From a virus, in IMG/VR virus record IMGVR_UViG_3300042938_002038, positions 17,775 to 81,774 of that record: 64,000 nt of DNA, one strand, 5' to 3'. The notes under the pieces are model-generated. The model was not told the DNA's origin, ran no database searches, and was given only the letters and a program-made list of their open reading frames with translations. The position numbers and the translations under genes were made by a program. Positions 172 to 18,381 of this stretch are shown here, one piece after another (position 1 is the first letter of the stretch; every line of letters begins with the position of its first letter).

Positions 172-567
172 GAAGTCCTCGAAGCAGCTTCCCAGATAAC
201 TGATAGAAATGAAAGAATCAGATATCTACAAGTCAACAGTTCAGTTCCTTTGCATACGGTTTTTCAAGGAGCATTTGATCCCAAAATTAAGTGGCTTCTT
301 CCGGAAGGTGCACCACCATATAAACCAAATGATTTAGTGGATCAACAACATGTATTTTTTTCTGAATGTAGAAAAATGTATCTGTTTATTGAAGGTGGTA
401 ATAATGATCTAAAACCACTCCGTCGAGAAGCATTATTTGTTCAGATGCTTGAACGTCTTGATCCAAAAGATGCTAAACTACTGTTGGCTATAAAAGATAA
501 ACATATCCCATATCCCGGGATTACCGAGGATGTTATTAAGGAGGCTTTTCCAGGTCTACTTCCATGA
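154..567 (+). CDS. DUF6433-family conserved T4-like phage protein
   Basis: This 137-residue protein starts at GTG (154), with GGAG seven bases upstream. It has the conserved core of a family I recognise from T4-like cyanophages: a central W-L-L-P-E-G motif (about residues 47-52), a segment P-P-Y-K-P-N-D, and a C-terminal P-G-(I/L)-T-x-(D/E)-x-x-K-E-A-F-P motif. No biochemical function is known. It lies in an operon with the partial gene upstream and overlaps the next start by 4 nt (ATGA), so the following small gene is probably translationally coupled. Its start is enclosed in an 8-bp hairpin. Confidence 0.8.
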   Translation: MKLGVSEVLEAASQITDRNERIRYLQVNSSVPLHTVFQGAFDPKIKWLLPEGAPPYKPNDLVDQQHVFFSECRKMYLFIEGGNNDLKPLRREALFVQMLERLDPKDAKLLLAIKDKHIPYPGITEDVIKEAFPGLLP

Positions 568-737
568 GTAAAAATAAGAAAAATTATATAGACCAGCTTG
601 ATGGTTATGATGAGGATGAATATCGTAAAAATGTTCTTAGGGATCAGGAACGTAGAAAAAATAAGCGACTTGCTAATGCACTTCGATCTAAAAATATCAA
701 AGATTTAATGTATCTCGAAGAAGACGAGGAAGACTGA
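564..737 (+). CDS. Small charged conserved phage protein (57 aa)
   Basis: The ATG at 564 overlaps the upstream stop (ATGA), and the TGA at 735-737 overlaps the next ATG, so the frame is held at both ends by 4-nt and 1-nt overlaps. The product is hydrophilic: a Lys/Asn-rich start, an aspartate/tyrosine patch, a basic middle (R-R-K-N-K-R) and an acidic tail of Glu and Asp. It resembles a short basic/acidic protein seen at the same place in T4-like cyanophages. No domain is recognised and function is unknown. The tight coupling is the best argument that it is real. Confidence 0.7.
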   Translation: MSKNKKNYIDQLDGYDEDEYRKNVLRDQERRKNKRLANALRSKNIKDLMYLEEDEED

Positions 738-985
738 TGCCCACTTATCTTTTTAAAAATATAAATACCGACGAAGAGGTTGAACTCTTCATGTCAATAA
801 CAGAGAGGGACAAGTATCTAGAAGATAATCCAAATATCACACAACTTGTTCACGGTGCACCAAGTATAGGCGATCCAATTCGTCTGGGACTCCGTAAACC
901 CGATGATGGCTTCAGAGATCGCCTTAGAGAGATAAAGAAGCACCATAGTCGTGGTATATCCAAGAGTACCGTAAATACTTTTTAA
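737..985 (+). CDS. FmdB-like small phage protein lacking the zinc cysteines
   Basis: This 82-residue protein begins M-P-T-Y-x-F-x-N and has a conserved K-P-D-D-G-F-R-D-x-L-R-E-I-K motif near residues 54-67. This pattern matches a small protein found beside DUF6433 in T4-like phages, whose N-terminus resembles FmdB-type zinc-ribbon proteins. No cysteines are present, so a zinc ribbon is not possible here. The last 15 residues look like a less conserved tail. It overlaps the previous gene by one base. Role unknown. Confidence 0.7.
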   Translation: MPTYLFKNINTDEEVELFMSITERDKYLEDNPNITQLVHGAPSIGDPIRLGLRKPDDGFRDRLREIKKHHSRGISKSTVNTF

Positions 986-1015
986 ATGCTCGTGAACCAA
1001 AAAAGGTTTCACTTA

Positions 1016-1759
1016 ATGTCAGCACCACCGAAAAAAAGACTATCTCGTAGAGAAAAAAGACAAAATAAAGAGAGCAATGGAGCAGTAGGAGATAAAATAA
1101 ATTTTAATCTTCAGGAAGTTTTTCCTTTAACAGAGAATCAAAAACTAACGTTTAATTCTTATGATCAAGGAAAAAATTTAATGCTTCATGGTATTGCAGG
1201 TACTGGGAAAAGTTATATTTCTATGTACCTAGCACTCAATCAAATACTCAGTGAAGATTCTCCTTATAAAAAATTATATATTGTAAGATCAGTTGTGCCT
1301 ACAAGAGATATGGGATTTCTTCCTGGCAACAACAAAGAAAAATCTAAAGTATATGAAGCACCATATTATGCTATATGTTCAGAACTTTTTAAGCGTGGTG
1401 ATGCTTATGATTATCTAAAACAAAAAAATATAATTGAATTTATATCAACCTCATTTATTAGAGGCATAACTCTAAACGATTGTATTATTATTTTAGATGA
1501 GATGCAAAATGCTTCTCTTCATGAATTAGATTCTGTTATTACACGTGTTGGTAAAAATTGTAAAATTATATTCTCTGGTGACTTTACCCAAAGTGATTTC
1601 ACCAATGAAAAAGAAAGAAATGGTCTTCCACAATTTATGAAAATCATTCGTGGTATAAAAAGCTTTAAATTTGTTGAATTTAATAAGAATGATATTTTGA
1701 GGAGTGATTTAGTTCGTGACTACATCATTGAAAAAGACAGACTTGGGATTGCCGCTTAA
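1016..1759 (+). CDS. phoH: PhoH-like ATPase
   Basis: This is a cytoplasmic P-loop ATPase of the PhoH family. Walker A is G-I-A-G-T-G-K-S (about residues 59-66) and Walker B is I-I-I-L-D-E-M-Q (about 157-164); a later S-G-D-x-T-Q-S-D segment is typical of PhoH and helicase superfamily I folds. PhoH-like genes are common in marine phages; roles in RNA metabolism or phosphate stress have been proposed but are unsettled. I chose the ATG at 1016 because AAAGG lies about 10 nt upstream. An in-frame ATG at 986, directly after the previous stop, would add ten residues but has no visible ribosome binding site. Confidence 0.88.
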   Translation: MSAPPKKRLSRREKRQNKESNGAVGDKINFNLQEVFPLTENQKLTFNSYDQGKNLMLHGIAGTGKSYISMYLALNQILSEDSPYKKLYIVRSVVPTRDMGFLPGNNKEKSKVYEAPYYAICSELFKRGDAYDYLKQKNIIEFISTSFIRGITLNDCIIILDEMQNASLHELDSVITRVGKNCKIIFSGDFTQSDFTNEKERNGLPQFMKIIRGIKSFKFVEFNKNDILRSDLVRDYIIEKDRLGIAA

Positions 1760-2917: not shown

Positions 2918-3214
2918 TTAATTCCTAATTTGATAATAAACTTCAAGTGAAATTTGATTCAAAAAAAATGGTGAGACATTATTTCGAATCTCAACCCTAA
3001 GACGTCTTGAAGAGTGATTTTCAATTTCATCCCATACTTCATCATATATTTGATCATAGACTTGATTCCTGACTTGATGCCAGATTTGATTCCAGGCTTG
3101 ATCACTGATTTGATTGTCGACTTGATTCCTGACTTGATGCCAGATTTGATTCCAGGCTTGATCACTGATTTGATCTTCGACTTGGCGCAAGACTTGATCC
3201 GAGACTCTATTCAT
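2918..3214 (-). CDS. Tetrapeptide-repeat protein, x-[D/N]-Q-[V/I] family (98 aa)
   Basis: About 70 residues are a continuous four-residue repeat with Gln at position 3 and Val or Ile at position 4, for example S-D-Q-V, L-R-Q-V, E-D-Q-I, W-N-Q-I, W-H-Q-V. The C-terminal third keeps the period but loses the glutamines. A 20-residue block occurs twice because of a 60-nt tandem duplication. Its ATG overlaps the stop of a 10-codon ORF just upstream. This is the largest member of a family with members at 6069, 8901, 9108, 9713, 9871, 10047 and 10226. No named family is recognised and function is unknown. The opposite strand is also open because of the 12-nt DNA period, but this frame matches the other copies. 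Confidence 0.6.
   Translation of the reverse strand: MNRVSDQVLRQVEDQISDQAWNQIWHQVRNQVDNQISDQAWNQIWHQVRNQVYDQIYDEVWDEIENHSSRRLRVEIRNNVSPFFLNQISLEVYYQIRN
3060..3179. repeat. 60-bp tandem duplication inside the tetrapeptide-repeat ORF
   Basis: Positions 3060-3119 and 3120-3179 are two copies of the same 60 bases that differ by only two adjacent bases near the end of each copy. Each is five 12-nt units. The near identity points to a recent duplication by slippage or unequal recombination. Confidence 0.9.
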
Positions 3215-3252: not shown

Positions 3253-3435
3253 TCATTCTCGTTCATTTATTTCACCCTTTATAAGATGTGCAATCTGATT
3301 TTGGAATATAGACCAAGTTATATCATATGTTTTATCGGCGACATCACGCATACATCGTTGACTTACATTCATATATATTTTATTGCCAGCACTCATTAAA
3401 AGTTTAGTTTTAAGATTATATTTAGCTCCAACCAT
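3253..3435 (-). CDS. Degenerate four-residue-period small protein (60 aa)
   Basis: The ATG at 3435 lies five bases after the ATPase stop on the minus strand. The frame can be extended to 3468, but that would overlap the ATPase. The protein keeps a hydrophobic residue at every fourth position over about 40 residues (for example Y-M-N-V, M-R-D-V, Q-N-Q-I, K-G-E-I) and its length matches the repeat family, yet most glutamines are gone. It may be a diverged family member. A 4-nt ATGA overlap at its stop begins a six-codon ORF, followed by a ten-codon ORF that overlaps the 98-aa repeat gene. Function unknown. Confidence 0.5.
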   Translation of the reverse strand: MVGAKYNLKTKLLMSAGNKIYMNVSQRCMRDVADKTYDITWSIFQNQIAHLIKGEINERE

Positions 3436-3439
3436 AGGT

Positions 3440-4315
3440 TTAGTTTTTGCAGCAAGTGACAATGGCACGCTTCATCCAATTGGCATCATTCTTACGGCGA
3501 AGGATACCAATCTTAAGAGCCACACGGAGAGAGAGCTCACGGAGTCGGGTTGCATTCTTTTCGATGAAGTTGAGCACATCGGCCTGAGCAGTAGCATCCA
3601 GGCCGATATTCTGCAGCAGACCACCACGTACCACCTGACGGATACGGATGAGGTAGTCACGCTGATTCTTCATTGCCAGGTCGATATAATGAGCACGAGA
3701 CACAAGAGCCGAAAGATGCGGCGCAAGCCGGGACCCACGGTCAATCATGGCGTCAAAATCGTAGTTGGTAATAAAGATCACGGTACCATCGAACTGAAAG
3801 CTCTTGGGCATGCGCTCGGCCGACTCATCGTCAATCAGCGTACCCTCGGTCATATACGAGATGATGCGCTTGTCGGTAGTGTCCAGAGCGGCCTTGAGCA
3901 GACCGATGGCAGTCTCGTCAAGGAACACATCGTCGGCATCGTCAAACACGAGCACCGAACCAGCAGTACGATGCTGATACAGCAGCTTGTAAAGTGCCGG
4001 AGCCTTGACGTAGCCCTTCACGATACGATGGGAGGTGGCATTGGGATCCCATGCCTCGAGCGCCTTCTCGACGGTGAACGACTTGCCGAGACCGGCAGGA
4101 CCGGACACGATCAGCGCACGAACGTCACCGTCGATGGCTGCATTTGCCATGTCGGAGAGGATTTCAAAACGGTCGTTGAGCTTCTGCTCAATTTCCTCGT
4201 CAGTCTCAACGATAACGGGCTCAGAGGGCTGAACCACGTTCATGATCTTGTCCATCTTGTCCGTCTTAGCGGTGCGGGTCTTACGGTAGCCATTTTTCGG
4301 AACGCCACGGGGCAT
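3440..4315 (-). CDS. AAA+ ATPase
   Basis: This 291-residue P-loop ATPase has Walker A G-P-A-G-L-G-K-S (about residues 71-78), Walker B S-V-L-V-F-D-D-A-D (about 119-127) and a sensor-1-like V-I-F-I-T-N-Y (about 174-180), followed by a helical lid. The first 20 residues are basic. The fold resembles clamp-loader and replication-type AAA+ proteins common in phages, but the substrate is unknown. The gene is visibly richer in G+C than the tail genes. AAGGA lies about 8 nt before the ATG, and a TTGACT -35 element lies at 4365-4370. A long open frame on the opposite strand (3383-4492) has no recognisable motif and is rejected. Confidence 0.8.
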   Translation of the reverse strand: MPRGVPKNGYRKTRTAKTDKMDKIMNVVQPSEPVIVETDEEIEQKLNDRFEILSDMANAAIDGDVRALIVSGPAGLGKSFTVEKALEAWDPNATSHRIVKGYVKAPALYKLLYQHRTAGSVLVFDDADDVFLDETAIGLLKAALDTTDKRIISYMTEGTLIDDESAERMPKSFQFDGTVIFITNYDFDAMIDRGSRLAPHLSALVSRAHYIDLAMKNQRDYLIRIRQVVRGGLLQNIGLDATAQADVLNFIEKNATRLRELSLRVALKIGILRRKNDANWMKRAIVTCCKN

Positions 4316-5773: not shown

Positions 5774-5802
5774 TTGACTTTAATTCCAGATTAAGATATA
5801 AG
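5774..5802 (+). promoter_or_regulatory. Early promoter
   Basis: TTGACT (5774-5779), a 17-nt spacer and TATAAG (5797-5802). The spacer is a variant of the one at 5485-5499, TTAATTCCAGATTAA, and the bases after the -10 (TTAAGT) are also shared. Confidence 0.8.
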
Positions 5803-5829
5803 TTAAGTTATAACAAGGAGACTACCAAC

Positions 5830-6003
5830 ATGGATATCTCGACCGTTCTGTCCCGTATGTACGCCTTCGCCAAGACCACCAAGGACGATGTGGCCTCTAA
5901 TGAGGTTGCCCGGGCCGCCGACCGTCTGGCGCACCAAGGGCCGTTTGAGGCTCAGCTGACCTCAGAGGAAGTCTCGGTGATTTCCCGCTTTGTCGGTGCA
6001 TAA
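5830..6003 (+). CDS. Small hypothetical protein (57 aa)
   Basis: A strong AAGGAG (5815-5820) nine bases before the ATG and a promoter at 5774-5802 support this gene. The product is predicted helical and acidic/alanine-rich, with no membrane segment and no recognised domain. Base composition is G+C-rich, as for its neighbours. It is a typical small early accessory protein of unknown target. Confidence 0.65.
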   Translation: MDISTVLSRMYAFAKTTKDDVASNEVARAADRLAHQGPFEAQLTSEEVSVISRFVGA

Positions 6004-6036: not shown

Positions 6037-6077
6037 GGTTAGTGACCAAATAATGATGGTATAAGGTTATGGAAAAA
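6015..6077. repeat. 14-bp inverted repeat spanning promoter and start codon
   Basis: TTTTTCCATAACCT (6015-6028) and AGGTTATGGAAAAA (6064-6077) are exact reverse complements. The left arm fills the promoter spacer; the right arm contains the ATG (6069) of the repeat ORF. An operator pair or a hairpin in read-through RNA are both possible. Confidence 0.85.
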
Positions 6078-6242
6078 GTTAAGAATCAAGTCTTGGGTTC
6101 AGTCATGGGTCAAGTGGATAAAAAAGTTTATAATCAAGCCTTGAATCAAGTCCAGGATCAAATCTTTGATCAAGTCTATAATCAAGTCTATAATCAAGTC
6201 TGGAATGAAATCTGTTATCAAGTCTTGATGGAGATAGAATGA
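6069..6242 (+). CDS. Tetrapeptide-repeat mini-protein (57 aa)
   Basis: Fourteen consecutive four-residue units, such as K-N-Q-V, M-G-Q-V, F-D-Q-V, Y-N-Q-V, W-N-E-I and C-Y-Q-V, make up the whole protein. It is the only family member with an obvious sigma70 promoter of its own. The ATG lies in the right arm of a 14-bp inverted repeat, with AAGG only two bases before it, so initiation may be weak or regulated. The stop overlaps the next start (ATGATGT). Function unknown. Confidence 0.65.
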   Translation: MEKVKNQVLGSVMGQVDKKVYNQALNQVQDQIFDQVYNQVYNQVWNEICYQVLMEIE

Positions 6243-6415
6243 TGTATCTGGTTAGTTTTACCAACTTTGGTTATACTAAGGACTTTTCCAATAAGGAACA
6301 AGCTCTGACTTATATGGAGAGGGCATGCCTTGAGGCACTGCTGATGACCGAGAAGGGTGAAGTCCTTGCTGGATTCTCTCCTATCACTGGCTTCAAAACC
6401 GAAAAAAGTGGTTGA
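6239..6415 (+). CDS. Small hypothetical protein (57-58 aa)
   Basis: Two adjacent ATG codons (6239 and 6242) follow GGAG (6230-6233) at suitable spacing. The start overlaps the repeat ORF stop, so translation is probably coupled. The product begins M-Y-L-V-S-F-T-N-F and has a short amphipathic helix in the middle, with no recognised domain. Its TGA lies inside the -35 element of the next promoter. Confidence 0.65.
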   Translation: MMYLVSFTNFGYTKDFSNKEQALTYMERACLEALLMTEKGEVLAGFSPITGFKTEKSG

Positions 6416-6439
6416 CTTTAAACCTAGTTAAGATATAAT
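6412..6439 (+). promoter_or_regulatory. Early promoter for the DUF932 gene
   Basis: TTGACT (6412-6417), a 16-nt spacer and TATAAT (6434-6439). The -35 overlaps the stop codon of the upstream gene. Confidence 0.85.
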
Positions 6440-6471
6440 CCTACTATCAAAACAAACACGGAGACTTAAAA

Positions 6472-7425
6472 ATGGCTCACAACATTGAAATGGTTGACGG
6501 CAAGGCTCAGATGGCATATGTGGGTGAAACCCCGTGGCATGGTCTGGGCCGTGAGGTTCCTGCTGATCTTACTCCAGATCAGATGCTTGAGGCTGCTGGT
6601 ATCAACTGGGAAGTTGAGAAGATCAAGGCCTATGCTAAGGTCGGTGGTAAGAACATCGACGTGGGTCGTTCGGCTCTTGTCCGTAAGAGTGACAACAAGA
6701 TTCTAGACATCGTGTCGAACGACTGGAATCCGGTGCAGAACGCTGAAGCGTTTGAATTCTTCAACGACTTCATCGCCGAGGGTGACATGGAAATGCACAC
6801 CGCTGGCTCTCTGGCTGATGGTCAGATTGTCTGGGCTCTGGCTAAGGTCAAGGACGGCTTTGACCTGTTCGGTGGTGATGAGGTCGAATCGTATCTGCAC
6901 TTCACCAACTTCCACAAGTATGGCTTCTCCACTGACGTTCGGTTCACTCCGATTCGTGTGGTCTGCAATAACACCCTAACGCTTTCTCTTAACACCAAGG
7001 TCGAGCGCTTTGTCAAGATTAGTCATCGCCGTGAGTTCAACGGTGACAACGTAAAGCTCATGCTTGGTATTGCTCAAGAGAAGCTTGCTAAGTATAAGGA
7101 AATGGCTGCTTTCCTCGGCACCAAGCGCTACACCAACGAGAATATGGTCGACTACTTCAAGCGTGTGTTCCCTGTTGCTGGTGGTCCGGATGCTAAGAAG
7201 GAACTTAGCAAGAATGCTAAGGTTGCTCTGTCCGTGGTCGATACTCAGCCCGGTGCAGACTTTGCTCGTGGATCCTTCTGGCAGCTCTTCAATACGGTGA
7301 CCTATACTGCTGATCATCTGATGGGTCGCACTCAAGACTCTCGTCTAACCTCTGCTTGGTACGGCAATGGTCGTAACATGAAGACCCGGGCGCTAGAGAC
7401 TGCCATCGAAATGGCAAACGCCTAA
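6472..7425 (+). CDS. DUF932 phage/plasmid-like protein
   Basis: This 317-residue protein matches the DUF932 family of phage- and plasmid-borne proteins. Visible family features are the T-P-W-H-G-L-G motif (about residues 20-26), W-N-P-V-Q-N-A-E-A-F (about 85-94), and a central R-V-V-C-N-N-T-L segment (about 161-168). The biochemical role of the family is not established; members often sit in early or stress-induced regions. It has its own consensus promoter and a GGAG ribosome binding site. Codon use is richer in G+C than in the tail genes, suggesting a different origin. Confidence 0.85.
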   Translation: MAHNIEMVDGKAQMAYVGETPWHGLGREVPADLTPDQMLEAAGINWEVEKIKAYAKVGGKNIDVGRSALVRKSDNKILDIVSNDWNPVQNAEAFEFFNDFIAEGDMEMHTAGSLADGQIVWALAKVKDGFDLFGGDEVESYLHFTNFHKYGFSTDVRFTPIRVVCNNTLTLSLNTKVERFVKISHRREFNGDNVKLMLGIAQEKLAKYKEMAAFLGTKRYTNENMVDYFKRVFPVAGGPDAKKELSKNAKVALSVVDTQPGADFARGSFWQLFNTVTYTADHLMGRTQDSRLTSAWYGNGRNMKTRALETAIEMANA

Positions 7426-7433
7426 AAAAACGG

Positions 7434-7462
7434 TTGACAAAACTTACTACCTGATATATAAG
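7434..7462 (+). promoter_or_regulatory. Early promoter
   Basis: TTGACA (7434-7439), a 17-nt spacer and TATAAG (7457-7462), directly after the DUF932 gene. Confidence 0.8.
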
Positions 7463-7497
7463 TAACTTATCAAAACATAGAAAAGGACTAAAATAAT

Positions 7498-7575
7498 ATG
7501 AGCGAATTTCATTCTGTGCTGTTGGCATCACTTCTACTATTTGTGTTGTGTGGTGTTGTGGCATTGGTGAACTAA
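7498..7575 (+). CDS. 25-residue membrane peptide
   Basis: The ATG at 7498 follows AAAGGA by about 8 nt and lies 35 nt downstream of a good promoter. After five polar residues (M-S-E-F-H) the peptide is one hydrophobic segment of about 20 residues ending V-N. It is too short for a classic holin and has no family. It may be a small inner-membrane effector of host takeover or a leader peptide for the following gene. Confidence 0.5.
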   Translation: MSEFHSVLLASLLLFVLCGVVALVN

Positions 7576-7583
7576 TAGACAGC

Positions 7584-7623
7584 GTCATCTCTATACAACT
7601 GAAGTCATCTCTATACAACTGAA
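7584..7623. repeat. 20-bp tandem direct repeat
   Basis: GTCATCTCTATACAACTGAA occurs twice in a row (7584-7603 and 7604-7623) in the leader between the small membrane peptide and the next gene. It could be a protein-binding site or a slippage product. Confidence 0.9.
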
Positions 7624-7643
7624 AAACACAAGGAAAAACAACT

Positions 7644-7997
7644 ATGAAAACTTTTACTCGTATGGCTGCCCAGGGCGATTTCATCATTCTGCGGATTAAT
7701 GATATTCCCGCAAATGTCGAGCGCCTCGCACCAAATGACCGTAACCACATTGTGGTTGCACATTCCGAAACCGGTCATGACCACGTGATGGTTGCCGACC
7801 GTGTAACCGCCTACAAGACTACTGGTACCAAGGACGTTGATCTTTATGAGATGTTCCTCTCCGTTGAGGCTCCTACAGAGATCAATCATCTTCGTACCTT
7901 TGATACCCACGAGACTCTTCTGGTTCCTCCTGGTAACTATACTGTTCGCCGCCAGCGTGAATATGTTGCCGAGGGTTTCCGTCGGGCTCAGGACTAA
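7644..7997 (+). CDS. Hypothetical protein (117 aa), partner of the DUF6745-like protein
   Basis: The ATG at 7644 follows AAGGA at about 10 nt. The protein contains G-D-F-I-I-L-R near the start, two histidine-rich stretches (H-I-V-V-A-H-S-E-T-G-H-D-H, about residues 35-47) and a C-terminal R-R-Q-R-E-Y. I think a similar short protein sits beside DUF6745 proteins in some bacteria, but this is from memory and uncertain. It shares spacing and base composition with the next gene and probably forms an operon with it. Confidence 0.6.
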   Translation: MKTFTRMAAQGDFIILRINDIPANVERLAPNDRNHIVVAHSETGHDHVMVADRVTAYKTTGTKDVDLYEMFLSVEAPTEINHLRTFDTHETLLVPPGNYTVRRQREYVAEGFRRAQD

Positions 7998-8036
7998 TCT
8001 TTCTTACTCTGTGAATCCATAAAAGGGAATTATATT

Positions 8037-8882
8037 ATGAAGAAGATCGACAAGCTTACTGCAGAACAGACCGCTCAGCTCGAGGTGTATCGTGACAAGT
8101 GGATCAAGATCGGTCTTTCCACCGACCGAGTTGATCCAGATGCAGCTAAGGCTGCTGTAGAACTTCTGTATAAGTGCGGTGGTCTTAACGCACCTGATGA
8201 GATCGTGTTTGCTAACGGTCCTCTGCATGCTAAGAAGCTTCTAGGTAGCCGATCGGTTACGGAGAGTTGTGTATACGGCTCTCATGAGGCCGCTTGGCTT
8301 TCCTTTTATGACTTCATGCAGAATGAAGTTGGTATTGATCTTGAGGGTAAGCTTGACGGTCTCTGGGCTGTTGCCAAGACTTGTGGTTGGATTTCCTGCT
8401 ACGACACTCTTGCAGTAGTGCAGGATCGTCCGGTTCATATCAAGATGGATGAGGACAATCGACTCCATTGTGAAACTGGTCCTGCCATTCTATATGCTGA
8501 CGGTTTTGCTGTCTATGCTTGGCATGGCGTCCGTATTCCTTCCGAATGGATTGAGGATAAGACTAGTCTGACTGCTCAGAAGGCTCTTACCTGGGAAAAC
8601 ATGGAGCAGCGTCGAGCCGCTTGTGAAATCCTTGGTTGGGTCAATATCCTTGGTGCACTAAACGCCAAGGTAATTGATGAGGATGAAGATCCCCAGATTG
8701 GTACTCTTCTGGAGGTTGATATTCCCGAGATTGGTCGGGAGAAGTTCCTCAAGGTTCTTTGCGGTACTGGTCGTGAGTTTGCCATTCCGGTTCCACCGGA
8801 TATGACTACGGCACTTGGTGCTAATGCATGGACATATGATATTGATCCTGATCTTCTTAAGACACTTGAGGTCCGGACCTAA
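8037..8882 (+). CDS. DUF6745-like protein
   Basis: This 281-residue protein has the pattern of DUF6745-type proteins of bacteria. It shows an N-terminal helical part (L-E-V-Y-R-D-K-W-I-K-I-G-L-S-T), a W-x-x-x-Y-D-F region, and a C-E-T-G-P-A-I-x-Y-x-D-G-x-x-x-Y-x-W-H-G-V-x-I-P-x-x-W-I core (about residues 144-172), then an E-I-L-G-W segment. Function is unknown. Many members are bacterial, so a phage copy in the G+C-rich region suggests transfer from a host. AAGGGA precedes the ATG. Confidence 0.65.
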   Translation: MKKIDKLTAEQTAQLEVYRDKWIKIGLSTDRVDPDAAKAAVELLYKCGGLNAPDEIVFANGPLHAKKLLGSRSVTESCVYGSHEAAWLSFYDFMQNEVGIDLEGKLDGLWAVAKTCGWISCYDTLAVVQDRPVHIKMDEDNRLHCETGPAILYADGFAVYAWHGVRIPSEWIEDKTSLTAQKALTWENMEQRRAACEILGWVNILGALNAKVIDEDEDPQIGTLLEVDIPEIGREKFLKVLCGTGREFAIPVPPDMTTALGANAWTYDIDPDLLKTLEVRT

Positions 8883-8893
8883 AAAGTCCGGAC
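8871..8893 (+). promoter_or_regulatory. Hairpin from two copies of the palindrome GTCCGGAC
   Basis: GTCCGGAC occurs at 8871-8878 and 8886-8893. Because the 8-mer is self-complementary, the two copies can pair with a 7-nt loop that contains the stop codon of the DUF6745-like gene. No strong T run follows, so this may be a weak terminator, an RNA-stability element or a translation control site for the next ORF. Confidence 0.55.
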
Positions 8894-8900
8894 TACCTTT

Positions 8901-9074
8901 ATGAATGGGATTATGGATCAAGTTTGGGATCAAGTCTATGGTCAAATCCGGCGTCAAGTCTATGATCAAGTCTTGCGCCAAGTCGAAGATCAAATCAGAC
9001 TTCAAGTTTGGAATCAAGTTTGGGATCAAGTCTATCGTCAAGTTTATGATCAAGTCATAAATTCAAATGAATAA
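8901..9074 (+). CDS. Tetrapeptide-repeat mini-protein (57 aa)
   Basis: After M-N-G-I the product is twelve perfect four-residue units ending Q-V or Q-I (M-D-Q-V, W-D-Q-V, Y-G-Q-I, R-R-Q-V and so on), then I-N-S-N-E. It has the same length as the copy at 6069. No ribosome binding site is obvious; a hairpin lies just upstream. The next ORF begins inside its last codons (ATG 9067), starting a chain of overlapping small ORFs. Function unknown. Confidence 0.65.
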   Translation: MNGIMDQVWDQVYGQIRRQVYDQVLRQVEDQIRLQVWNQVWDQVYRQVYDQVINSNE

Positions 9075-9111
9075 AAAAGTTTATAATCAAGTCAAGTTAG
9101 AGAACAAATGA
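9067..9111 (+). pseudogene. 14-residue truncated member of the repeat family
   Basis: The ATG at 9067 overlaps the previous ORF and begins M-N-K-K-V-Y-N-Q-V, like an ordinary family member, then stops after 14 residues. Its TGA overlaps the next ATG (ATGA, 9108-9111). It may be a truncated remnant that keeps translational coupling along the chain. Confidence 0.4.
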
Positions 9112-9224
9112 AAAAAGATGTATTTACTCGATCCATAAACTTGATAAGTTATAGAATTTATGATCAAATTATAGCACAAATAGAAGATCAAATCTATTCT
9201 AAAATTTTAGAAGATAATCTGTGA
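9108..9224 (+). CDS. Short degenerate tetrapeptide-repeat ORF (38 aa)
   Basis: Joined to its neighbours by ATGA at its start and GTGA at its end. The C-terminal half keeps the repeat (I-Y-D-Q-I, I-A-Q-I, E-D-Q-I, Y-S-K-I), while the N-terminal half has drifted. This points to decay of older copies within the array. Confidence 0.5.
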   Translation: MKKDVFTRSINLISYRIYDQIIAQIEDQIYSKILEDNL

Positions 9225-9406
9225 TACAAATGCGTAAAGTTTCCACTCAATGTCTTGATAAATTCTATATACAACTCTGGCATCAAGTTTGTATTAAAAT
9301 TGACAATGAATCCGTAAATTATATTTGGGAACAATCTAGTATTTTTAGTATAGTCTGGGATCAAGTTCAGATGCCTATCAAGGATCAATTGACTGAATTA
9401 AATTAA
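9221..9406 (+). CDS. Degenerate tetrapeptide-repeat ORF (61 aa)
   Basis: The GTG at 9221 overlaps the preceding TGA as GTGA, in keeping with the chain; an ATG at 9230 would give 58 residues. Units such as L-W-H-Q-V, Y-I-W-E-Q and V-W-D-Q-V show ancestry, but spacing between them has slipped. Size fits the family. Function unknown. Confidence 0.5.
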   Translation: MIQMRKVSTQCLDKFYIQLWHQVCIKIDNESVNYIWEQSSIFSIVWDQVQMPIKDQLTELN

Positions 9407-9415
9407 GGAATAAAA

Positions 9416-9670
9416 ATGGATAATATTCAAATCACACTATCTTATAATCGCTTTCCTGAAAATCAAAATCCAAATACTGTAATGGGTGAATCATATCAAC
9501 ATACTTTTACCATTACTGATGAAGCCACTTATTTTTCTGTTTTAGAAAAAGTTGAAGTGATGCTTAAGAGTCTAGGTTATGAGTTCAATGGTCATCTAGA
9601 ATTTAGTGGTCTGGTAACTGATGATGCCGTTCAGAGTGATAATGTTGTAGTTCTTCGCCCTGAGGAATAA
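9416..9670 (+). CDS. Hypothetical protein (84 aa)
   Basis: AAGGAA lies about 7 nt before the ATG. The protein is acidic and looks like a small alpha/beta domain: a strand I-Q-I-T-L-S-Y, a second strand H-T-F-T-I-T, a helix Y-F-S-V-L-E-K-V-E-V-M-L-K-S-L, and a final strand N-V-V-V-L. It has no four-residue repeat although it lies between two repeat chains. No family recognised. Confidence 0.6.
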   Translation: MDNIQITLSYNRFPENQNPNTVMGESYQHTFTITDEATYFSVLEKVEVMLKSLGYEFNGHLEFSGLVTDDAVQSDNVVVLRPEE

Positions 9671-9712
9671 GTACTATAAACCATATTAGCGTCAAGTCAA
9701 AGATCAAAACCT

Positions 9713-9874
9713 ATGAAACAAGTCTGGGAACAAATTTGTGGTCAAATTTGGGAACATGTCTGGGATCAAGTAGAAAATCAAATCAGTGATCAAGTCAGGA
9801 GTCAAGTATGGGGTCAAGTCAGACTTCAAGTCAGAAGTCAAATCTGGGATCAAGTAGAAGATCAAGCCCTATGA
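9713..9874 (+). CDS. Tetrapeptide-repeat mini-protein (53 aa), first of a coupled chain
   Basis: Thirteen four-residue units from the first residue (M-K-Q-V, W-E-Q-I, C-G-Q-I, W-E-H-V, W-D-Q-V and so on) with Trp or Arg often in position 1. Its stop overlaps the next start as ATGA (9871-9874). Repeat-like bases also precede the ATG (near 9691-9709), so an older start may have been lost. Function unknown. Confidence 0.6.
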   Translation: MKQVWEQICGQIWEHVWDQVENQISDQVRSQVWGQVRLQVRSQIWDQVEDQAL

Positions 9875-10050
9875 ATTATGTTCAAGATCAAGTTGTGAGC
9901 TTTGTTAGGGGTCAAGTCTGGACTAAAATTATGAAACAAGTCATGGTTCAAATCGAGAGACAAACCCGAAATCAGGTCGTGGATCCAGTCTGGGATCAAG
10001 TCTCGGATCAAGTCCGCCGTCAAGTCCGAAGTCAAGTACTGAATCCATGA
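9871..10050 (+). CDS. Tetrapeptide-repeat mini-protein (59 aa), second of the chain
   Basis: The ATG at 9871 is set by the ATGA overlap; a longer frame from 9808 runs out of frame through the previous gene and is rejected. Units include V-Q-D-Q-V, V-R-G-Q-V, I-M-K-Q-V, V-W-D-Q-V, S-D-Q-V and R-R-Q-V. The N-terminal half is more diverged than the C-terminal half. The stop overlaps the next ATG. Confidence 0.6.
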   Translation: MNYVQDQVVSFVRGQVWTKIMKQVMVQIERQTRNQVVDPVWDQVSDQVRRQVRSQVLNP

Positions 10051-10229
10051 ATAGTATTCGAGATAAGATCTTAGCTAATATTTGGCATCAAGTTTATAAT
10101 AAGGTTTATTATCAAGTTAGTAATCAAATTTGGGATAAAACTACCGATCAAGTTTTGGATAAAGTTTATTCTGAAGTAACGATTGAAACTAGGATTCAAG
10201 TCAAGGATCAAATATGGGACATGTCATGA
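10047..10229 (+). CDS. Tetrapeptide-repeat mini-protein (60 aa), third of the chain
   Basis: Begins at an ATGA overlap (10047-10050) and ends in another (10226-10229). The period of four is kept (I-W-H-Q-V, Y-N-K-V, Y-Y-Q-V, S-N-Q-I, W-D-K-T, T-D-Q-V, L-D-K-V, Y-S-E-V), but Lys, Glu and Thr replace several Gln or Val positions. Lower G+C than its neighbours, so probably a separate lineage within the family. Confidence 0.6.
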   Translation: MNSIRDKILANIWHQVYNKVYYQVSNQIWDKTTDQVLDKVYSEVTIETRIQVKDQIWDMS

Positions 10230-10426
10230 ACCAAGTCAGGGGTCAAGTCTGGAATCAAATCAGATTTCAAGTATGGGATCAAATCTGGGATCAAATAGAA
10301 GATCAAGTCCGGAATCAAATCTGGGATCAAGTAGAAGATCAAGTCAGATTTCAAGTCTGTGATCAAGTCAGATTTCAAGTCTGTGATCAAGTCTGTGATG
10401 AATTCTATGTTCAAACCCGAAATTAA
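10226..10426 (+). CDS. Tetrapeptide-repeat mini-protein (66 aa), fourth of the chain
   Basis: The ATG at 10226 is set by the ATGA overlap; another in-frame ATG at 10214 would overlap more. The protein is an almost perfect repeat: M-N-Q-V, R-G-Q-V, W-N-Q-I, R-F-Q-V, W-D-Q-I and others, with the pair R-F-Q-V C-D-Q-V present twice in tandem. This is the most regular copy and looks recently expanded. Confidence 0.6.
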   Translation: MNQVRGQVWNQIRFQVWDQIWDQIEDQVRNQIWDQVEDQVRFQVCDQVRFQVCDQVCDEFYVQTRN

Positions 10427-10440
10427 ATTATGGGTAAATT

Positions 10441-10617
10441 ATGAAAACTGTTATTTCAGATATTCGTAGTTGTCAATATTCACACGCTTTTAATAAAGTT
10501 CAAGATACTACTTCTGCAGATACCCAAAATAAAGTTGCAATGCTTATTTGGGATAAAGTTTTCATCTCTACTTTATATAAGTATATTAGCACATTTGACG
10601 AAGATTTAGGAAATTAA
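10441..10617 (+). CDS. Small protein at the end of the repeat chain (58 aa)
   Basis: The protein has the family length and a few repeat-like pieces (F-N-K-V-Q-D-T, Q-N-K-V, I-W-D-K-V), but most of it is diverged. The ATG at 10441 is the first with room after the previous stop. It ends one base before the next gene. It may be an old family member that has become a distinct protein. Confidence 0.5.
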   Translation: MKTVISDIRSCQYSHAFNKVQDTTSADTQNKVAMLIWDKVFISTLYKYISTFDEDLGN

Positions 10618-16521: not shown

Positions 16522-18381
16522 CTAAGCTAGAGAAGATATAAGTTGTGATAGAGGAACCTCAGCTGATCTATCATCCTGAGATGCCATGGCTTGATATTGT
16601 CTACCACCTTGTGCCGCAGGTTGTGGAACCGTAATATTCATTGGTGTTCTAGCTGGTCTAGCAGCCAATGATTGTTCATTTAGAGCTTGCCCGCCAGTTC
16701 TTTGCTCTTGTTGCATTTGTGGTCCTGCTGATTGAGCATAACTTAAAGCTAATTGCATTCTACGTGCTGTTGTAGTACCAGATGATCTTTCATAAAACTT
16801 ATCAAATAGCATTGCTGCTTCGTCTGGTGTTTTGGCACCCATAAGGGCTTTTCGTGCTCTAGATTCCGGTCCAGATAGTTCCCAATTTATAAATTCTAAT
16901 TGTTCTTTAAATGTAGATTGTTTTATATCTTTACCAAAAAATTTAGTAAAATTGGCTTGTCTGTCTGGATGCCACTGTGCTAATCCATAAGCTTTGCCAC
17001 TATCACCAACAGCATCAGTTTTAAAATCACTTTCATATTTTATGTTTGCTGCAATACCTGCTGCTTGTTCTCTTGTATATCCTTTTTCAACAAAGAAGCT
17101 CATTACTTCTTCAGCAGAACCTGAGCCAGCAGCACCTGGTGTTCTTGCTCCTGCTATTGGTTCTGATGATGTTTGTTGAGCTGCAGCGGCACCAAAATCA
17201 TAAGTTTCAACTTGTGTTCCAGGTGTCATATCACTAATTGCTGTGGAACTACTTGCAGCACCCGATGAACTAGGTGGTGCGGATGATGCACCTGCTGATG
17301 TTCTTTGTGCACCAGTTGAAGAAACTGATCGTACATTTGGTGCATTATTTTGACCTGATAATTCTGCAGGTCCGACAAAATTATCAGTCATAATAGCTAT
17401 TGTACCAGCATCAAATACAAGTGAATTATAATCATATTCACCGGTACTAGTGCTTGGTTTGCTTTCCATTCTTTGTGCAAATGAAACTGAGCGCACCATT
17501 GGATTCTGTTGTGGTGATGTTTGTTGTGAAGCTACTTTAATATATCCACCATCATGAAGTTGTTTTACTACTTCAAAGAATTGATTTTCAGGATATTCAA
17601 GTTCATCAACAATTAATTTACGTGCTGGCATCAAAGTACCAGCCTTGATATCCCCAATGTCTTTTAAAAGTTCTAATTGTGTATCATTGGATATATCTTG
17701 AGGGCCTAATCTACGAACACTGGGTCCAGGGCCATATTTCTCACTTAGTTCAAATGCTGATTTAGCACCAGCAACTACACCCAAAACACCAGTTGCAGTA
17801 GTTGATAGACCTATACCAAGAGCACTCATAGAATCTTGTTTACCGGTAAGTTTTTCCAGAAAAGTGCCTGCAGCAGCTGTTGTTGCAGCACCTTTCAGCA
17901 TTTGCTTTGGACTTACTAGACTTGCAGCAGAGCGCCCAATGGATTTAGCTACATCTTTACCTTTTTCTAAAACTTTTCCAAGTGTTCCACTTACACGTTG
18001 TTTTAATCTTTGTAGATTTGAAGGTCTTGCTCTAGCTTGAGCCCTTGTTCTTGGTCTTCTTCTAGGCTTTTCTGGTGTAAAATCAGAAAGATTTGGCATG
18101 CCATTATCTTTAGATTCAGAAACATTTAGTATTTTTCCTAGTGTTTCATTTACTTTAATAAGTTCCTGCTCAGCTTGACCAAGAACATTATTGTTGTTTA
18201 ATAATGAATTTGTAACATTTTCAACACCTAAATCAAGTCTTGTTGTTTGACTTTTATATTCTCTAGTTACATTTTGCTGTTCATTATCATCTTTATTTTG
18301 TATACTAGCTATCACAGGCGCTGCTCTGGAAAGATTAGCGCCTGTTGCTTTAAAGTATTGCTGTGTTTTACTTATCGGCAT
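16522..18381 (-). CDS. Tail lysozyme-domain protein
   Basis: Residues about 423-560 match phage tail lysozyme domains: E-E-V-M-S-F-F-V-E-K-G-Y-T-R-E-Q-A-A-G-I and N-I-K-Y-E-S-D-F (E450 the likely catalytic glutamate), then Y-G-L-A-Q-W-H-P-D-R. It would cut glycan strands during DNA entry or lysis. The N-terminus is helical with an Arg/Pro-rich basic patch (about 105-120) and an Ala/Gly-rich, possibly membrane-active region (about 163-205). The 619-aa length indicates a structural enzyme. It overlaps the holin gene by 14 nt. gp5 in this phage has no visible lysozyme domain, so this protein may take that role. Confidence 0.82.
   Translation of the reverse strand: MPISKTQQYFKATGANLSRAAPVIASIQNKDDNEQQNVTREYKSQTTRLDLGVENVTNSLLNNNNVLGQAEQELIKVNETLGKILNVSESKDNGMPNLSDFTPEKPRRRPRTRAQARARPSNLQRLKQRVSGTLGKVLEKGKDVAKSIGRSAASLVSPKQMLKGAATTAAAGTFLEKLTGKQDSMSALGIGLSTTATGVLGVVAGAKSAFELSEKYGPGPSVRRLGPQDISNDTQLELLKDIGDIKAGTLMPARKLIVDELEYPENQFFEVVKQLHDGGYIKVASQQTSPQQNPMVRSVSFAQRMESKPSTSTGEYDYNSLVFDAGTIAIMTDNFVGPAELSGQNNAPNVRSVSSTGAQRTSAGASSAPPSSSGAASSSTAISDMTPGTQVETYDFGAAAAQQTSSEPIAGARTPGAAGSGSAEEVMSFFVEKGYTREQAAGIAANIKYESDFKTDAVGDSGKAYGLAQWHPDRQANFTKFFGKDIKQSTFKEQLEFINWELSGPESRARKALMGAKTPDEAAMLFDKFYERSSGTTTARRMQLALSYAQSAGPQMQQEQRTGGQALNEQSLAARPARTPMNITVPQPAAQGGRQYQAMASQDDRSAEVPLSQLISSLA

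Follow-up and report, generated by a model that had tools for sequence, protein, structure and literature searches.

The window analysed here, a stretch of 64,000 nucleotides (nt) forming positions 17,775 to 81,774 of the 81,774-base virus record IMGVR_UViG_3300042938_002038, carries a family of short tetrapeptide-repeat genes (mini-genes), the main chain of which is immediately preceded by a gene for a DUF6745 protein (8037-8882). Our reading, to which we assign a probability of roughly 0.55, is that a three-part phage module is present in the window in a split form, with its repeat arms encoded as separate genes; a role in counter-defence is not insisted on. This reading builds on the association of mini-genes with DUF6745, the complementarity between arrays encoded in cis and in trans, the fixed place at which arrays are inserted in DUF6745 proteins, and whole-unit differences in array length between contigs. 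An earlier note on this DNA had recognised no named family for the repeats and so missed the link to DUF6745, the internal arrays of which are the same kind of element. The frame of that note was likely too narrow: the relevant unit would be the whole DUF6745 module, with the chain of mini-genes as its separately encoded repeat arm.

In a reading of the open reading frames (ORFs) of the window, seven clear ORFs, six on the plus and one on the minus strand, were found to be made up, entirely or for the most part, of x-[D/N]-Q-[V/I] units in phase, at the coordinates previously reported. A profile made from 34 mini-genes of our own choice (the A3 profile; seven of its rows are from the window and one row is truncated) matched nine places in the whole record, all within the window, i.e. 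the seven clear genes and two diverged ones at 9108-9224 and 9221-9406; no array was found in the 17.8 kb of the record outside the window (L178). Thus, two of the diverged relatives proposed earlier stand, and those at 9067-9111, 10441-10617 and 3253-3468 remain doubtful because they have no A3 match of their own. The parts of the module and the candidate relatives are:

7644..7997, plus strand: partner of 117 residues, here named 'QREY protein' after the motif ...VRRQREY...; homologues lie beside DUF6745
8037..8882, plus strand: DUF6745 protein of 281 residues, module core; PF20530 at 121.5 bits against a gathering cut-off of 27, E 3.8e-35
6069..6242, plus strand: tetrapeptide mini-gene, 57 residues; A3 match; ATGA overlap with the next gene at 6239
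8901..9074, plus strand: tetrapeptide mini-gene, 57 residues; A3 match; 18 nt past the end of the DUF6745 gene
9067..9111, plus strand: remnant of 14 codons with one or two units, doubtful as a gene; read from the sequence only
9108..9224, plus strand: diverged mini-gene, 38 residues, ATGA overlap; A3 match over 9090-9209, E 3.7e-6
9221..9406, plus strand: diverged mini-gene, 61 residues, GTGA overlap; A3 match over 9236-9388, E 7.9e-6
9713..9874, plus strand: tetrapeptide mini-gene, 53 residues; A3 match
9871..10050, plus strand: tetrapeptide mini-gene, 59 residues, ATGA overlap; A3 match
10047..10229, plus strand: tetrapeptide mini-gene, 60 residues, ATGA overlap; A3 match
10226..10426, plus strand: tetrapeptide mini-gene, 66 residues, ATGA overlap; A3 match
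10441..10617, plus strand: possible far-diverged relative, 58 residues, doubtful; scattered units
2918..3214, minus strand: tetrapeptide mini-gene, 98 residues, with a 60-nt higher-order repeat; A3 match, E 1.2e-26
3253..3468, minus strand: possible far-diverged relative, doubtful; scattered units

The chaining of neighbours by short overlaps was confirmed, with five ATGA junctions (6239, 9108, 9871, 10047 and 10226), one GTGA junction (9221) and one overlap of 8 nt (9067); four junctions (8882/8901, 9406/9416, 9670/9713 and 10426/10441) have no overlap. The longest ORF starts earlier for two mini-genes, at 9808 and 10214; the ATG at 9871 and at 10226 is the one in the ATGA overlap. Counting only units with Q, E, K or H as third residue and V, I, A, L or T as fourth residue, the seven genes contain 95 units. 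Q occupies the third position in 79 of these and V or I the fourth in 87, and the first residue is variable (W in 22, R in 19, Y in 14, then S, E, M, L and others). In the V/I codon of the 95 units, the second base is T in 87, and the third base is C in 59, T in 23, A in 12 and G in 1; a near-fixed second base together with a variable third base is expected where the amino acid is kept. The repeat phase is identical in every copy, as had been claimed; since the other frames and the antisense strand are also open, an open frame by itself proves nothing.

The period-4 signal is far beyond chance. A strong lag-4 window was detected in 660 of 16,163 ORFs from the window and the loci collected by then, compared with 17-39 for lags of 3, 5, 6 and 7; shadow frames of individual arrays are counted among the 660, and the loci had been picked as relatives. 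Moreover, after residue shuffling, not one of 5,412 ORFs taken from the first 40 sources contained an array of six units. The earlier reading of the mini-genes as a real protein family, linked by overlaps and showing signs of constraint at the amino-acid level, is supported.

DUF6745 relatives were encoded by 372 stretches of viral contigs in one scan. Those analysed came from viral contigs (27 loci and, separately, the best 80 of the 372 stretches), bacterial genomes (17 loci) and annotated phages (11 records, three of which were examined). In alignments of 14 and of 40 chosen relatives, the proteins have conserved N-terminal and C-terminal parts and, in most, a period-4 array between them at one fixed place. 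The internal arrays are of the types xDQL, xSQL, xDQV, xAQV, xDSV, xSAV, xDNL, xSSL and AAT, and only the period of four and a small or aliphatic fourth residue are constant. Across relatives, array types include QV, QL, SV, NL, AV, AT and RV with the period unchanged, which points to selection at the protein level. The DUF6745 protein of the window is without an internal array, the place of which would correspond to about residues 66-75, and the PF20530 model covers its residues 73-272, past the array place. None of five mini-genes scanned matched PF20530 up to E 1; a profile-profile comparison of mini-genes with the internal array region gave a match of 99.2%, to be read with caution given low complexity. 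In the fused form, represented by prophiGD102-1 gene 38 (L003), L030 and loci of Mycobacterium and Hyphomicrobiales, the core and the partner gene are the same as here and the array likewise has period four and a variable first residue; however, it lies inside the protein, whereas in the window it is absent from the core and encoded as separate mini-genes.

The distribution of the two arrangements was compared over 91 distinct DUF6745 loci, obtained from 124 including the window by keeping one per identical last 150 residues, with L001, a part of the window's own record, excluded. An internal array of at least five units was present in 60 of the 91 loci (5-72 units, median 26.5), and none of these 60 had separate Q/R-type mini-genes in the locus as retrieved; two do carry arrays of the AA type, one of which, in L050, lies in a different and longer protein. 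Of the other 31 loci, which have no such internal array, 19 carry separate mini-genes (78 in total, median 14 units and 66 residues), as called with a strict procedure that reports five of the seven in the window. The difference between 19 of 31 and 0 of 60 has a p value of 7.8e-12 in Fisher's exact test, computed on relatives that are non-independent and have flanks of different lengths. L096 was recognised by eye as a twentieth split locus, with mini-genes overlapping the called ORF at the contig edge; it is one of 35 viral records that had been chosen as fused. The A3 profile gave 64 matches in 30 of these 35 records: 61 fall inside the called DUF6745 ORF, and three, in G059 and G061, belong to the fused gene as well, being its first half at the opposite end of the contig. 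Similarly, no separate mini-gene was found in 16 bacterial genomes; the A3 profile matched in ten of them, and where these matches lie outside the retrieved DUF6745 genes, they mark the first half of a fused gene at a contig end (L194 and L195) or a shadow frame (L196).

In a test in the reverse direction, a DNA pattern for starts of the form M-[KN]-S-V-x-x-Q-V-x-x-Q-V-x-x-Q-V identified 29 stretches on 25 contigs. DUF6745 was present on 17 of these 25 mini-gene contigs, on 20 of 28 when three records derived from the DUF6745 search are counted in, and on 10 of 18 when the seven contigs already in the DUF6745 set were left out. The largest set of mini-genes was found in L177, 16 kb of the 40.8-kb record G008, where 24 lie in two blocks downstream of one DUF6745 gene, itself preceded by the partner gene; M-K-S-V is at or near the start of 19 of the 24, the ending K-A-R-T-E-P is common to several, and two neighbours are identical. 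L179 has 14 mini-genes in 19 kb. In 21 chosen loci with 163 mini-genes and 90 neighbour pairs, the start lies in an exact 4-nt overlap in 38 pairs, and in 14 no ATG or GTG was found before the array. Searches of isolated phages with a mini-protein identified only the fused mycobacterial prophage gene, and the BLAST low-complexity filter may hide others; with megablast, no isolated phage matching window 11-35 kb was found.

Two contigs deserve separate mention. In L123 (1-760), another of the 35 records chosen as fused, a single internal array runs through three successive frames without stops, as the result of sequencing error, frameshifting or decay; because this is one array with two frame changes, we rejected it as a case of separate mini-genes. 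On the Mycolicibacterium plasmid locus L190 (2237-4558, plus strand), a DUF6745 protein of 773 residues seems to have the N-terminal part of the family twice.

The partner gene is the second constant element. In the window it lies about 40 nt from the DUF6745 gene, and its product has no Pfam, PADLOC or NCBIfam match of weight. Of the 63 DUF6745 loci for which 700 nt or more of upstream sequence was available, 62 have a partner homologue. The two genes share a strand and are no more than 150 nt apart in 54 of these 62, with the partner first in 19 cases and DUF6745 first in 35; in another seven, mostly loci rich in mini-genes, the partner is more distant or on the opposite strand. Mini-genes sit between DUF6745 and the partner gene in L020, L022, L097 and L106. 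In L119, the first part of the partner and DUF6745 form one ORF; because the nearly identical L121 keeps the two genes apart and has a stretch that is missing from L119 (at about 5800-5830), we attribute this ORF to a deletion or an assembly error and did not use it as evidence. In Deinococcus and Streptomyces replicons (L185, 7048-8369; L186, 4915-6537; L188, 4058-5522), the C-terminal part of DUF6745 and an adjoining partner homologue occur together as in the window, and adjoin STM4011-STM4015 genes (radical SAM proteins, a hydrolase, STM4014 and STM4015). There, the tetrapeptide array is replaced by leucine-rich repeats, read by eye, before the C-terminal part of DUF6745 and beside the partner gene (Deinococcus), or by a non-repetitive region (Streptomyces); the former suggests that the place of the array can be filled by recognition-type repeats. 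Directly before the partner gene of the window, 7584-7623 is a perfect 20-nt tandem duplication, GTCATCTCTATACAACTGAA twice, that is possibly regulatory. Further upstream of the module, 6472-7425 (plus strand) is a strong match to the DUF932/TIGR03299 phage/plasmid-like protein. We consider it highly probable that the arms are functionally part of the DUF6745 module.

Array length was compared in seventeen pairs of near-identical contigs, all from metagenome assemblies. Over 8,391 aligned bases, the window differs from L005 only by one 12-nt unit in the array of the 10226 gene; the only difference between L070 and L071 over 13,218 bases is likewise a single 12-nt unit, here in the internal array. 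L097 and L102 are separated by a net 84 nt in one mini-gene, and in the L097 group one mini-gene occurs in forms of 61 and 89 residues, which lie side by side in L103; L098 and L103 have altered or chimaeric versions of two neighbouring mini-genes. In the L007 group there are no changes in 372 bp of mini-genes. A third group has 65 non-synonymous and 5 synonymous mini-gene changes, numbers that are inflated by misaligned indels. We conclude that array length and order change readily in some lineages and that point changes do not accumulate rapidly. Since the frame survives any exchange between 12-nt units, finding it intact after such a change is no evidence of selection.

No paper mentioning DUF6745 was found in the literature searched, and in the portions consulted of the literature on DUF6745, tetrapeptide repeats, Tweety/Phrann and counter-defence, we found no account of the split form. 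The closest studied parallel is gp54 of mycobacteriophage Tweety. According to the portions of the articles consulted, gp54 has 40-48 tetrapeptides between unique ends (PMC9262239, PMC8549241, PMC2884959), its relatives have 48, 26 and 15 units (PMC2884959), and mutants that escape the Phrann gp29/gp30 prophage defence have more or fewer gp54 units (PMC9262239, PMC8549241; both review-type articles that cite the primary report). Unit number thus decides the counter-defence of gp54, the target of which shifts as units are gained or lost (PMC9262239, PMC8549241). The authors suggest that juxtaposition of the ends tunes the protein (PMC9262239, PMC8549241), the mechanism of which 'remains obscure' (PMC8549241). 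By tblastn, gp54 relatives are present in 148 phage records. The gp54 unit x-[S/Y]-A-A, with G, W or Q as x, is similar to arrays of the xSAV and AAT types found in some DUF6745 proteins, and unit number differs between near-identical phages in both systems, with assembly error possible for the DUF6745 module. However, the gp54 array lies unsplit within one protein, and the flanking domains differ from DUF6745; no partner gene was found in the 3.5 kb examined. FliH was rejected as an assignment for gp54 because the matches are far under the cut-off. Because its flanks are unrelated to DUF6745, gp54 is, as judged by sequence, an analogue of the module and not a demonstrated relative. In L050, a phage contig that also has a fused DUF6745 gene, another protein (485-1384, plus strand) ends in an xSAA array much like that of gp54, with a similar lead-in (LHARAGAGDIP in L050 and LHRQAAAGQVP in gp54); arrays of the xSAA kind are attached to more than one kind of protein.

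Several results weigh against the split-module reading. No mini-gene was seen at 11 of the 31 loci without an internal array. For three of these groups, one record has mini-gene matches elsewhere, i.e. 13 in G030 (L013 group), 9 in G033 (L108 group) and 2 in G040 (L023 group), one of the latter two also read directly in the sequence. The sister records G029 (L012), G032, G034 (L122), G037 (78.9 kb), G038, G039 and G041 gave no A3 match, and mini-genes are also absent from L004 (a 162-kb phage record with no match), L028, L031, L038, L076 and L104; L031 is a truncated L023-type gene, and the internal array is degenerate in L038 and very short in L076. Conversely, eight of the 25 mini-gene contigs are without DUF6745. 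The arrays reach the contig end in four of these eight and come within 0.45 kb of it in a fifth, and three are unexplained. The largest of the eight, G002 (L175 and L176; 102,602 bases), has 20 mini-gene matches, located partly at its two ends and partly in its interior, and neither DUF6745 nor the partner was matched anywhere in it; either a piece between the ends is missing, or the core is a different one. Array length is unchanged in most of the 17 near-identical pairs, and repeat-length differences between metagenome contigs may be assembly errors. Between the window and L006 there are no changes in 1,674 bp of mini-genes, compared with 19 (17 of them synonymous) in 5,586 bp of other genes. 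Tweety gp54 has no Pfam match, and hhalign gave it a probability of 0.3% against the DUF6745 alignment. Finally, AlphaFold2 modelled the 10226 mini-protein, as a single chain, only as one long helix (mean predicted local distance difference test score, pLDDT, of 91), and the internal array of L030 as a helix with low confidence (about 45-61).

In the same L030 model, of the fused form and based on a 40-row alignment, the core is confident, with most blocks over 90. We do not take the helix as settled for the arrays, because a period of exactly four on an alpha-helix with 3.6 residues per turn precesses by about 40 degrees per unit, and because helix formation looks unfavourable for arrays of the GDNL and GSAA types. 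Sequences rich in Gly, Asp, Asn and Ser, as in some arrays of relatives, generally form helices poorly. Compared with solved structures, the DUF6745 model, mostly its C-terminal part, had no relative (best Foldseek E 1.1; Z at most 3.9 in a second look); compared with viral structure models, the matches were DUF6745 relatives and unnamed fragments, with E up to 0.001. The DUF6745 profile had one match among PDB sequences, on the array region (E 0.016). In PHROGs, DUF6745 corresponds to the unknown family 31813 (E 1.2e-14), and the mini-genes matched weakly (best E 0.00035). Neither core nor partner had a match of weight in PADLOC or NCBIfam.

Candidate names for the mini-genes were rejected. 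DUF4816 (PF16086) was the top Pfam match of three of the five mini-genes scanned and the second of a fourth, and reached at most 22.2 bits (2918-3214, E 1.3e-4) against a gathering cut-off of 29.4. Matches to Cas2 for one mini-gene were weak (E 0.0055 at best). An ARID-domain protein matched by the mini-gene profile among PDB sequences (E 0.0003) was taken to reflect composition, as no stretch passes alone. Pentapeptide-repeat proteins likewise have a short period with an aliphatic residue once per unit; however, their period is five and here it is four, and none of the five mini-genes scanned had a Pfam match to them.

Among other explanations, the module might itself be a phage or prophage system for defence, superinfection exclusion or toxin-antitoxin-like function, with DUF6745 and the partner as effector pair and the arms as sensor. 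We regard this as unlikely, though worth keeping in view: the pair is conserved in either order in phage contigs, a mycobacterial prophage, plasmids and bacterial genomes, and variable repeat arms, like the leucine-rich repeats of Deinococcus in their place, would suit a sensor; however, many extra arm genes in phage contigs would equally suit an offensive role. Neither core nor partner has a PADLOC match, which says only that they are not described defence proteins. Alternatively, the mini-genes could be by-products of tandem repetition, i.e. fragments of a former internal array spread by unequal recombination without selected function. Units of 12 nt do recombine readily, indels in multiples of 12 keep the frame without selection, and reshuffling is seen in the identical neighbours of L177 and the chimaeric mini-gene of L103. 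Such a by-product is rather improbable in view of the complementarity with the fused form, the starts in an exact 4-nt overlap in 38 of 90 neighbour pairs, the 24 mini-ORFs in one 16-kb stretch, and the V/I codons with varying third and nearly fixed second base; moreover, the M-[KN]-S-V start is common to several phages and endings are shared within several phages. In the window, only one of the seven mini-genes (10047, MNSI) comes near that start.

The earlier note had proposed a helical rod or polymer. A helix is indeed predicted for a single chain and the period is strict, and mini-proteins could on that basis polymerise with each other into rods or filaments independently of DUF6745. However, a strict period of four does not give a straight stripe at 3.6 residues per turn, which makes the rod weaker than stated; because, in addition, the Gly-, Asp-, Asn- and Ser-rich arrays of relatives are poor helix formers and the mini-genes are tied to DUF6745 by position and by exclusion, polymerisation is very improbable. 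The note had also allowed a DNA or RNA role for the GATC-containing 12-nt period. GATC occurs 309 times in the window compared with about 221 expected from base composition, and units are homogeneous at the DNA level within one phage; however, GATC is present in none of 62 units of the L021 mini-genes, none of 36 in L022, and none of the internal arrays of L029, L046, L050, L061 and L116. Relatives use different codons (CAA-GTC, CAG-CTC, TCG-GTC, GCG-GTT, AAC-CTC, CGG-GTC) and keep the protein period, and this comparison largely refutes a functional DNA or RNA repeat, to which we give only a very slight chance. Least credible of all is that the mini-genes serve as silent donor cassettes for recombination with an expressed DUF6745 array, in the style of antigenic variation: mini-genes do recombine with each other, but the DUF6745 gene of split phages has no array to receive them, and the supposed cassettes have their own starts, stops and overlaps.

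On the preferred reading, that of a split module, the three parts would be the partner, the DUF6745 core and the tetrapeptide-repeat arms; in most relatives the arm would be the array inside the core, and in the window it would have moved out into several, mostly overlapping mini-genes. The mini-genes would be translated, and their products would dock on the core and bind targets. Acting with the core in trans, the arms may serve as exchangeable binding or spacer modules of varied length and variable first residue, and their physical binding to the core, which we infer from the arrangement of the genes, is somewhat favoured. The tandem 12-nt units would let arms lengthen, shorten and recombine. 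Because the core of split phages has no array, spacing between the two ends of one protein would not be the whole story there; it would fit better if the arms had a binding function or if their docking restored the arrangement. Many arm genes would offer a repertoire at once, the fused form one array at a time. More speculatively, one core might be served by a multigene arm repertoire, with up to about 24 copies competing for it or combining on it, giving many binding specificities per infected cell at once and a polyclonal adaptor against variable host defences. The likeliest use, by analogy with Tweety gp54, would be to match or neutralise variable host or prophage defence proteins, and we offer counter-defence as a tentative role.

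Altogether, the split-module reading would turn odd repeats into a testable module in which core and partner are conserved and the arm, whether part of the core protein or made separately, varies in length. The analogy with gp54 would tie a large uncharacterised family to a studied phage protein with a tetrapeptide array. If the arms dock in trans, split phages would provide short, separable parts with which a tunable counter-defence could be worked out.

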